The notes below the pieces were generated by a model. It was not told the origin of the DNA and made no database searches. It saw nothing but the letters and a program-made list of their open reading frames with translations. This document shows, one piece after another, positions 30,366 to 32,498 of a DNA stretch of 32,498 nt; the stretch's first letter is position 1; each line of letters starts with the position of its first letter. The position numbers were made by a program, and so were the translations under genes. This DNA comes from Elusimicrobiota bacterium (GTDB taxonomy: Bacteria > Elusimicrobiota > Elusimicrobia > Elusimicrobiales > Elusimicrobiaceae), in assembly GCA_029008615.1 (NCBI GenBank), contig JAQXJI010000026.1, forward strand, positions 1 to 32,498, given 5' to 3'.

Positions 30366-31370
30366 ATGAAAAAAATAGTATTTTTGATTTCATTGTGTAT
30401 AACATTAACAGCCTGTGCCACACAAGGTGATTTGGTTGATTTAATTGAGCAAAAACGTAAAAAAACAGAGGTCGTGCAAGTTAATCAACAGGTTGAGATA
30501 TTTGATAAATTCTGTAAATATGCATTATCCCAAGTAGATGGTATTTCTTTGGAAAATAAGGATACCTTTTTTAATTCAATAATAGAAGACTATAAAGAAA
30601 AAAGTATTATTATTAAAAATCCTTCTCAGAAAAATGCTATTTTAATTAGACAAATAGTAAATGATGTGTATGATAAAATGAGTAATATGATTGATTTGGT
30701 TCAAGGGATAAATGGGGGCGAAAATGCATTTTTTACAAATCCTAAATATGAAGATGGCTCTGGGGAGAAAAAGAAAATTCCTTGCATATATAATAGCCGT
30801 AGCTATTGCAAGTCTTTATTTTTAGACTCTAAATGTTATTTGGAATTAGAAAGTAAGACAAATAAAATTACGGAGTTATTAGAAGAGTTAGCCTCTGCAC
30901 TGTATGATGTAGAAAAAAAAGAATTTGAGAAAAACTATGGGGAATATATGGGAGGAATAGAGCATTGTTATCCTGGATTGGGTGGAGGATGTTATACTCC
31001 ATTCAAAAAAGGGGCTTTGTATTCCGTATGGGGAATAATAAGGCAGGTTCTGCCAGACGGGTCTAGTATGTTATTGGGAGGAGAACCAATGTATGGCTAT
31101 ATTTCTAATATGATAATGCTACGCACTAAGAAAGCTACCGACCATGTTAATGGCGAGCCAGTTTCTTTGCCTTATGTAAGATATATTGGCACTTTTACAT
31201 ATACTACGGTTATGGGTGGAAGCAATACGGTTCATTCTTTTAGAGAAGTAAAATTCTCTCCTAAAAGTGGAAAATACTTATTTTTCCCAAAGAGAAGATG
31301 TCCAACAGATAAAGAGTTGAATTCTTTAGTTCAAAATGGAAAATGGTCGGGCAATAAGAGTTGTAAATAA
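30366..31370 (+). CDS. lipoprotein of unknown function, AT-rich
   Basis: 334 aa. A lipoprotein signal with lipobox LTAC puts the lipidated Cys at position 17. The body holds several Cys (IPCIYNSRSYCKSLFLDSKCYLE, HCYPGLGGGCY) that could form disulfides outside the cytoplasm, and aromatic-rich segments near the C-terminus. I do not recognise any domain. Base composition and codon choice (AAT, ATA, TTA, GAA) are clearly more AT-rich than in all upstream genes, suggesting recent acquisition. It is isolated between a terminator and a long repeat region. AAGGAAA gives the ribosome-binding site. Confidence 0.75.
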   Translation: MKKIVFLISLCITLTACATQGDLVDLIEQKRKKTEVVQVNQQVEIFDKFCKYALSQVDGISLENKDTFFNSIIEDYKEKSIIIKNPSQKNAILIRQIVNDVYDKMSNMIDLVQGINGGENAFFTNPKYEDGSGEKKKIPCIYNSRSYCKSLFLDSKCYLELESKTNKITELLEELASALYDVEKKEFEKNYGEYMGGIEHCYPGLGGGCYTPFKKGALYSVWGIIRQVLPDGSSMLLGGEPMYGYISNMIMLRTKKATDHVNGEPVSLPYVRYIGTFTYTTVMGGSNTVHSFREVKFSPKSGKYLFFPKRRCPTDKELNSLVQNGKWSGNKSCK

Positions 31371-31431
31371 TGCCTTTGTAGCCTTTTTTGTTGAAACAGC
31401 ATTCTATTTATTAAATTTATAAATCAAGTTC

Positions 31432-31661
31432 CGCACTTTGAGTGCGAGCTACTTTTCACATTGTAGAAAAGTAGCCAAAAGGCTATGGCTTCAGAATCGG
31501 CTAAAATAATATTTCCAAGGCCATGGCGGCAACTCGTAAAAAAATAATAAATGCGAAAAGCCGTCTTTATTTTTTTACTCAAACGTGCCAGTCTGGCTCG
31601 GACACATCGCCATAATTGGCATTCTAAAAAATACTATTTTAACAGCGCCGATGATGTCGCC
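31432..31661 (+). repeat. structured intergenic repeat, copy A
   Basis: About 230 bp with several hairpins in order: CGCACT-TTG-AGTGCG (31432-31446); GCTACTTTTC / GAAAAGTAGC (31448-31475, loop 8 nt); conserved AATCGGCTAA; AAGGCC and GGCGGCAACTC; GTAAAAAAATAA / TTATTTTTTTAC (31536-31547 and 31567-31578); TGGCATTCTAAAAAA (31617-31631); and AACAGCGCC. It aligns over its whole length with copy B in the opposite orientation. Confidence 0.75.
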
Positions 31662-31741
31662 AAAAAACGACACAACGAAAAACCTGCGGTTTATAGACGC
31701 TCCTGATAGTGGCGTAAACAGCAAAAAGTATTTAAGTTTTT

Positions 31742-31823
31742 GTAGGTCAGGCGGGGCGCCCAGGCCCTGGGTTCTACCTGACAAGGTAAATACCTTATTA
31801 ACGTCAGGCGTAGCCTGACCTAC
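31742..31823. repeat. palindromic REP-like cluster
   Basis: GTAGGTCAGGC (31742-31752) is the exact inverted copy of GCCTGACCTAC (31813-31823). Nested inside are CCCAG-GCC-CTGGG (31760-31772), AAGGTA-AA-TACCTT (31783-31796) and GTCAGGC-GTA-GCCTGAC (31803-31819). The whole can fold as one compound hairpin. Confidence 0.65.
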
Positions 31824-31877
31824 GATTATCTTTTACACGCTCACATACTCTCGGCTAGCACTTTTCCATATTTGGAT

Positions 31878-31965
31878 AAATTTAAGTTTTTTCTTCATTC
31901 GGATACCTCGCTCGCTCCGCTCGCGTAGCTGCAAGTATACCTCAATCAGAATAAAACTTAAATTT
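31878..31965. repeat. long-loop inverted repeat
   Basis: AAATTTAAGTTTT (31878-31890) and AAAACTTAAATTT (31953-31965) are perfect 13-bp arms around a 62-nt interior; similarity continues outward imperfectly (TTTTC...ATTTG on both sides). Confidence 0.6.
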
Positions 31966-32152
31966 CCCTCAAATCTGAAAAACCACGCCAGTCATATTCT
32001 CTCACGCTGTTTATTTTCGCGAAGATAAATTCTATTCAATAATAAACTGCTAACAGTAAAAAACTTACATAAAAAATTCTATTTTTAACATTTCTATATC
32101 TATACATACTCGGCTATAAAATTATTCCACAACTTTTAAAGCGTCAATGCAG

Positions 32153-32174
32153 GTCAGGCGTATCTTGACCTACG
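32153..32174. repeat. second copy of the GTCAGGCGTA palindrome
   Basis: Matches 31803-31824 at 20 of 22 positions (GTCAGGCGTA, then TCT instead of GCC, then TGACCTACG), in direct orientation. The palindrome is partly decayed. Confidence 0.6.
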
Positions 32175-32205
32175 TTTGTTTTATGTATTTATAGTAGTTG
32201 TTGTA

Positions 32206-32416
32206 TGGCGGCGTTAAGGCGCAGTTAACTTTCCTTTTTTTAGAATGCCAGAGCGGCGGATTGTGCGAATAAAAAATAACTGGCGGCAGTAAGCATTTAG
32301 TTATTTTTTATGAGTTGCCGCCGCGGCCTTAAAAAAGGGAAAGTTAGCCGATTTCGCAGCCTAGCTTTTTGCCTGCTTTTTAAGCGATGTAAAAAGCAGG
32401 ATGCGCACAAGGCGCG
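32206..32416 (-). repeat. structured intergenic repeat, copy B
   Basis: About 210 bp, inverted relative to copy A. Read on the minus strand it shows the same order: a short GCGC-rich hairpin (32401-32416), CCTGCTTTTTA / TAAAAAGCAGG (32400-32372), AATCGGCTAA, AAGGCC, GGCGGCAACTC, ATAAAAAATAACT / AGTTATTTTTTAT (32311-32299 and 32281-32269), TGGCATTCTAAAAAA (32250-32236) and AACTGCGCC. Stem sequences differ from copy A but pairing is kept. Confidence 0.75.
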
Positions 32417-32485
32417 TAAGTGTATATCTATAAAGAGAAATTCCTATTAATTAATGCGCTTTATGTAAGGCGAAAAATAAAACAG

Positions 32486-32491
32486 TTGACA
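32486..32491 (+). promoter_or_regulatory. -35 box at the window end
   Basis: A perfect TTGACA seven bases from the end; the -10 and the gene it serves would lie beyond the window. Confidence 0.35.
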
Positions 32492-32498
32492 TTGTTTT

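Follow-up and report, generated by a model that had tools for sequence, protein, structure and literature searches.

The question raised by this locus is what the two inverted, diverged copies of a non-coding repeat near the end of the window (the whole 32,498 nt stretch of Elusimicrobiota DNA that was analysed) are, and why their hairpins have changed in step. There is about an even chance, judged from sequence comparison, that copies A and B are members of a pan-bacterial, mobile-type superfamily that folds as one strand, most likely as an RNA with pseudoknots. The sequence-only reading in which they were noticed had aligned them from end to end, and this is borne out. Homology runs from approximately 31426 to 31672 in copy A and from 32421 to 32200 in copy B (E approximately 3e-11, far beyond chance), and the GC-rich parts align too, so the similarity is not confined to the AT-rich arms. 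The two copies are members of different subfamilies. A covariance model (R1), built from copies A and B and two near copies of B, matches copy A at 31431–31661 with 180 bits and copy B at 32207–32417 with 244 bits. The features of both copies are given in Table 1.

Table 1. Features of element copies A and B and of the spacer between them. The strand given is the one predicted to fold.
Feature	Position	Strand	Description
Copy A	31426..31672	-	Plus in the sequence-only reading; from alignment with copy B and loci L006 and L007
Copy A hairpin 0	31432..31446	-	CGCAC TTTGA GTGCG; from the sequence and the fold
Copy A hairpin 1 (pseudoknot stem S2)	31448..31475	-	31448-31457 pairs with 31466-31475; loop 31458-31465
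Copy A A-rich linker	31476..31481	-	On the minus strand U-rich L1, CUUUUG; could be the third strand in a triple helix with S2, judged from its position, its sequence and the parallel match to the purine strand of S2 across the family
Copy A pseudoknot strand GCTATG	31482..31487	-	Partner: loop 31459-31464, CATTGT; oppositions C-G, A-T, T-A, T.T, G-C, T.G; assigned from the sequence and the family-wide permutation test
Copy A long arm	31488..31661	-	Terminal and outer stems, asymmetric internal loop, inner stem; AACTC (31531-31535) faces CTCAAAC (31578-31584); inner stem 31536-31547/31567-31578
Spacer between the inverted copies	31673..32199		Short GTAGGTCAGGC palindromes and a palindromic repeat of ~165 bp
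Copy B	32200..32421	+	From alignment with copy A, L006 and L007
Copy B long arm	32207..32359	+	Inner stem 32269-32281/32299-32311; TTGTGCGAA (32261-32269) faces GAGTT (32312-32316), the complement of the AACTC / CTCAAACA type of loop
Copy B pseudoknot 5' strand CCTAGC	32360..32365	+	Pairs C-G, U-A, G-C, C-G with loop 32383-32389
Copy B U-rich linker L1 (TTTTTG)	32366..32371	+	Candidate triple-helix strand against S2 AAAAA
Copy B hairpin 1 (S2)	32372..32400	+	32372-32382 with 32390-32400
Copy B hairpin 0	32401..32417	+	ATGCGC ... GCGCGT

Every pair of the ten-pair stem of copy A (hairpin 1) is as had been claimed, and the three pairs said to have changed on both sides (31448/31475, 31451/31472 and 31457/31466) are C-G, G-C and T-A in copy B. 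The second stem, GTAAAAAAATAA/TTATTTTTTTAC in copy A and ATAAAAAATAAC/GTTATTTTTTAT in copy B, likewise agrees. That reading did not include the pseudoknot between loop and linker, did not treat the long outer arm as one unit, and noted neither the further copies nor the better pairing of the complement. On the plus strand of copy A the order is a GC-rich hairpin 0, hairpin 1, a linker CAAAAAG, a short GGCTA and the long arm. Hairpin 1 typically takes the form CTTACTTTTT, a 6-nt loop and AAAAAGTAAG. The sides of the long arm are hypervariable yet complementary, with a constant asymmetric loop near the tip (AACTCGC ... GCTCAAACA); the inner stem is long in copy A and has few bases in most relatives.

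The claim that folding of a single strand has been kept through compensatory change is supported by the larger alignment. When 33 related copies are aligned to R1, changes on both sides are seen in 61 of 69 pairs, 88.8% of pairing cells are paired against 43–51% with the partners slid, and the covariation score is 0.516 against 0.132 in shuffled alignments (0/500) and 0.074–0.106 in the slid controls; the related copies in these counts are not fully independent, and the pairing and covariation figures are somewhat inflated because the alignment was fitted to R1. Helix 1 of the model, which is hairpin 0, has two-sided changes at all 6 pairs, and in helix 2, hairpin 1, 95.2% of cells are paired; helices 3–9 are the long arm of copy A. 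The case for the fold rests on covariation, because the folding energies of A and B are only moderately low compared with shuffles (z approximately -2.8).

The hairpin 1 loop and a segment past the linker are complementary and make a pseudoknot. Four or more consecutive Watson-Crick pairs between loop and linker segment are present in 61 of 95 unique elements, against a mean of 26 and a maximum of 39 in 1000 permutations. The loop and segment sequences are CTTGAT/ATCAAG in the Bacteroidota, TCGCC/GGCGA in the Comamonadaceae, CGTGT/ACACG in Haemophilus and TGGCC/GGCCA in Methylophaga, and within one Flammeovirga genome the two sides switch together from GAT/ATC to GCT/AGC. Copies A and B have four Watson-Crick pseudoknot pairs each, with interior mismatches. 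Many Proteobacteria have a second pseudoknot, of hairpin 0 with the bases directly before hairpin 1 (GTGCG/CGCAC, GTTGCC/GGCAAC, TCGCT/AGCGA), which reaches at least four pairs in 24 of 37 cases with a permutation maximum of 13; it is not evident in copies A and B of the window.

Read on the complement, the order S1 - U-rich L1 - S2 - S1' - S2' is that of an H-type pseudoknot in which L1 crosses the deep groove of S2. L1 is a parallel image of the S2 purine strand, as in UUUUCUUUG / AAAAGAAAG, UUUCUUUUG / AAAGAAAAG and UUUUUCUG / AAAAAGAG. The parallel match score is 247, where the permutations have a mean of 222 and a maximum of 233 (0/2000), and the antiparallel match, at 224, gives no signal. 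Because L1 matches the purine strand in parallel and not antiparallel, a triple helix of L1 with S2 is a likely candidate structure, with four to five U.A-U steps in the window. Telomerase RNA, SAM-II and preQ1-II have H-type pseudoknots in which a U-rich loop 1 forms a triple helix. The element resembles these in the order S1 - U-rich L1 - S2, the A-rich purine strand and the predicted U.A-U triples, but is not homologous to them and is not a leader.

The alignments scored A.C and G.T oppositions alike, so a fold without strand preference would give the two in equal numbers. On the strand read earlier, hairpin 1 has 19 A.C and 1 G.T (p 4e-5). The long arm, with one element counted per locus, has 18 against 5 in pseudoknot-bearing elements and 37 against 23 in those with the arm only; the Elusimicrobiota elements have 10 against 2. 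On the complement the A.C oppositions are G-U wobbles, and since A.C outnumber G.T it is the opposite strand whose fold has been selected, minus for copy A and plus for copy B, with the qualification that part of the asymmetry could come from strand-biased C-to-T damage. The apical loop on this strand is UUUGAGC ... GCGAGUU, in which G.A oppositions occur in tandem. Of the earlier proposal that one strand folds as RNA or as ssDNA, the strand-specific fold stands, on the strand opposite to the one read; the wobbles, the pseudoknot and the triples point to RNA in preference to ssDNA.

The element is a unit of approximately 170–250 bp that carries no gene. If RNA is the folded form, it would be copied from the complement of the strand read earlier and folded as one strand. 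The 5' part of the product would be the long arm, with its complementary hypervariable sides and apical internal loop. The middle would be the H-type pseudoknot of S1, U-rich L1 and stem S2, with L1 lying along the purine strand of S2 in U.A-U and C+.G-C triples, and the 3' end would be a hairpin, engaged in the second pseudoknot in many Proteobacteria. The expectations for a structured RNA agree with what is found, namely covariation that includes the pseudoknot and tolerance of G-U on one strand.

Against RNA, no conserved promoter or terminator was recognised at the element. The strand asymmetry alone does not exclude ssDNA, since DNA too can form G.T wobbles, sheared G.A pairs and pyrimidine triplexes. 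It is possible, if rather unlikely, that the DNA strand which replication exposes has to fold, and that the folded strand is cut out and inserted by an HUH recombinase or another that acts on ssDNA, as for REPINs or IS200/IS605-type MITEs, the inverted pairs being the mobile unit. Strand specificity and the many intergenic copies would suit such an element, as would the predominance of one inverted-pair arrangement, since REPINs are inverted REP doublets (PMC3116915). The REP/REPIN systems with RAYT (TnpA-REP) are likewise non-coding intergenic hairpin repeats in many copies, with frequent inverted pairs and compensatory changes, and inverted doublets are over-represented here as they are there (11 of 15 pairs). 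A REP is defined by a GTAG tetranucleotide at one end of a palindrome of 20–40 bp (PMC3733652), and a GTAG-like tetranucleotide is found beside hairpin 0 in some members, including copy A. However, it is inconstant (GTAG in A, GCAG in B, GTAA or GTGA in others) and lies within the paired stem, and the element, at approximately 200 bp, has one or two pseudoknots, a candidate triple-helix linker and a conserved apical loop. The strong wobble preference of hairpin 1 is also more usual for RNA. The HUH transposase suggested earlier as a partner is not supported for the IS200/IS605 Y1 type: the Y1 transposase gene (Y1_Tnp, the RAYT type) is absent from the element's own genome and from 14 of 25 carrier genomes, and an IS200/IS605-derived element served by it in trans was rejected on this ground.

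Further copies were found both in the genome and in the relatives searched. Contigs C21 and C17 carry near-full copies of B at 93–95% identity, and several part-copies lie at contig ends, which suggests that the assembly breaks at the element and that the true copy number is probably higher than the approximately 12 found in this 1.66-Mb genome by the R1 search, a count in which some hits are one palindrome matched again on its reverse strand and two weak ones are doubtful. Within the phylum, R1 finds the element in 17 of 199 genomes at E 0.01. A strict motif finds it patchily in 65 of 341 Elusimicrobiota genomes, a lower bound because the copies in the window differ from this motif at the apex and are missed by it; the species of one genus (g2) have from 0 to 22 copies.

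Beyond the phylum, the apical 19-mer is present in at least 116 genome stretches from many phyla, including Proteobacteria, Bacteroidota and Nitrospirota, where by our own estimate chance would give approximately 8 over 257 Gb, both strands counted. Among the matches listed are Variovorax, Ralstonia, Haemophilus, Rodentibacter, Methylophaga, Iodobacter, Desulfuromusa, Flammeovirga, Flavobacterium, Parabacteroides, Sphingobacterium, Nitrospirales, Gastranaerophilales and others. Hairpin 1 and the linker, the pseudoknot domain, accompany the 19-mer at 45 loci among the matches listed; others, mostly of Clostridia and Patescibacteria, share the apex but consist of a longer arm alone. Single genomes hold 116 (a Flammeovirga), 48, 29 and 27 copies of the motif, and a reversed-pattern control gave 0. 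The arm-only relatives (L153, L155, L179, L185, L208, L240 and others), from Clostridia, Patescibacteria and some Proteobacteria, are very long hairpins with an apical AACTCGCTNCGCTCAAACA and no hairpin 1.

At the search sensitivity used, matches were found in 3 of 72,556 plasmid records and in no phage record. The Pasteurellaceae element matched no phage record, although prophage contigs have it, and one Pasteurellaceae copy had no match in E. coli. Viral contigs gave no match to a pattern of hairpin 1 on its own. Separately, L074-like and L083-like viral contigs carry the 19-mer but not the stems around it; its context there is fixed and phage-like, and the left flank varies.

This chromosomal distribution, together with a complex fold conserved across phyla, would be in keeping with an element that serves its host, as a processed or stabilising RNA or a terminator-like or nucleoid-associated repeat, selected by the cell and spread by ordinary duplication. 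Such a role is nevertheless improbable, given the patchiness between species of one genus, copy numbers from 0 to more than 100, and a position and orientation to genes that are not fixed. Copies are intergenic, without a constant orientation to genes. A terminator or leader role was rejected because there is no orientation bias.

The patchy occurrence between species of a genus, the like copies at unrelated intergenic sites in either orientation and the frequent inverted pairs argue for a non-autonomous mobile repeat, which would be spread by machinery acting in trans; we infer this mobility from the distribution and not from a seen insertion. Variovorax copies, for example, are alike within the element and have unrelated flanks. 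Fifteen close pairs lie within 1 kb, 11 of them plus-then-minus, 1 minus-then-plus and 3 in tandem (p 1e-4). Plus-then-minus is the arrangement of copies A and B, and the predicted 5' ends of the products would face each other. The two copies in a pair are often of different subfamilies, and the centre of a pair is often palindromic too; such spacers are also found in some Comamonadaceae pairs. More tentatively, and as something short of probable, hundreds of species would carry, in up to more than 100 copies, a mobile RNA of approximately 200 nt whose structure combines tandem pseudoknots with a triple helix in the major groove and a long hypervariable arm, served by a widespread RNA-recognising machinery.

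No clean empty site with a target duplication was obtained in any of the genomes compared, and a target duplication was established nowhere; the same genus offers no empty site, the region after 30191 being without counterpart in relatives. The apparently empty L013/L014 was rejected as evidence of an insertion with GCGCCTT duplication, as the A/B homology runs past that point, and a deletion between two GCGCCTT repeats is as likely. The B-type copies of this genome have longer flanks (promoter regions) in common, so duplication of larger blocks may explain its copies. No protein that might mobilise the element was found. Its own genome and 18 of 25 carriers lack reverse transcriptase, and a retroelement RNA (a retron or a group II intron derivative) was rejected. 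An integron attC site (core boxes RYYYAAC / GTTRRRY) was also rejected, by inspection, as the apex is conserved, the ends vary and there are no constant boxes.

Flammeovirga copies lie inside units of approximately 430–560 bp with terminal inverted repeats (TIRs), TGTAAACTAAATTTTCG / CGAAAACTTAGTTTACA. They are what would be expected were the structured part a passenger, with a role of its own, on TIR-bounded MITEs moved by DDE transposases, but elsewhere the best inverted repeats in the flanks barely exceed those of shuffled controls (mean difference 0.7), and this explanation is very improbable for the family. The TIRs and target-site duplication that mark DDE-type MITEs were not found, other than the TIRs of the Flammeovirga units. 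In Flammeovirga sp. EKP202 (L318–L337) the TIR-bounded units have two different right halves. The bacterial MITEs of the Correia/NEMIS, ERIC and RU type are, like the element, short, gene-less, dispersed and foldable; in the element, however, most copies are without TIRs and the internal structure is conserved, not the ends. It is well established that template switching corrects quasi-palindromes, and neutral quasi-palindromes perfected in this way at replication, their covariation mutational and not selected, would account for long arms that diverge freely yet stay complementary; this is the least probable explanation, as it cannot yield the asymmetric internal loop AACTC / TCAAACA conserved across phyla, the loop-linker pseudoknot covariation or the wobble asymmetry.

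The sequence-only reading knew no named family for the repeat, and none was found here. Rfam 15 has no family at the gathering score over the copies of the window or the copies in the loci searched, and lenient thresholds, for this genus as for others, gave no match to the element either. The open-access papers searched hold no description of the conserved strings, the keyword matches being surveys of REPs, MITEs and stem-loops, and a 2008 survey of stem-loop families has only a 31-bp uptake-signal family for H. influenzae; that the element is undescribed is only as certain as Rfam 15 and these papers make it. HEARO and the omega RNAs of IS605-type elements are large structured RNAs that reach many copies by membership of a mobile element. 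The element differs from these in having no Rfam match, no adjacent nuclease gene and another architecture. It is filed here as a new kind of dispersed structured element, REPIN-like in arrangement and structured-RNA-like in conservation, and is apparently an undescribed large family of folded repeats of approximately 200 bases between genes. If this is correct, a repeat family that ranks among the more widespread in bacteria has been left unnamed, its arms changing too fast for sequence clustering, and bacteria have a SINE-like, RNA-structured repeat. It would also point to a mover or RNA-binding protein to be sought in the strains with many copies. The element is a clear test case for the upkeep of strand-specific folds in dispersed repeats.

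Several other features of the window were noted. A possible lipoprotein gene of 334 aa at 30366–31370 has no Pfam match and no nucleotide counterpart in genomes of the same genus. The spacer holds, at 31845–32021, a different palindrome of approximately 165 bp (AAATTTAAGTTTT...AAAACTTAAATTT), with about 15 copies in the genome at 73–90% identity. Short REP-like palindromes of the GTAGGTCAGGC / GCCTGACCTAC type are found at 31741–31790, 31798–31825 and 32148–32175, and also adjoin the element copies L006, L007, L009, L010 and L013. A repeated block resembling a promoter, TTGACA and then a T-run, lies at 32420–32498 and is also seen in L006, L007, L008, L011, L013 and L014. Some copies of this block are without the element and many assembly contigs end inside it; it sits upstream of genes for pilins and cysteine-rich secreted proteins.
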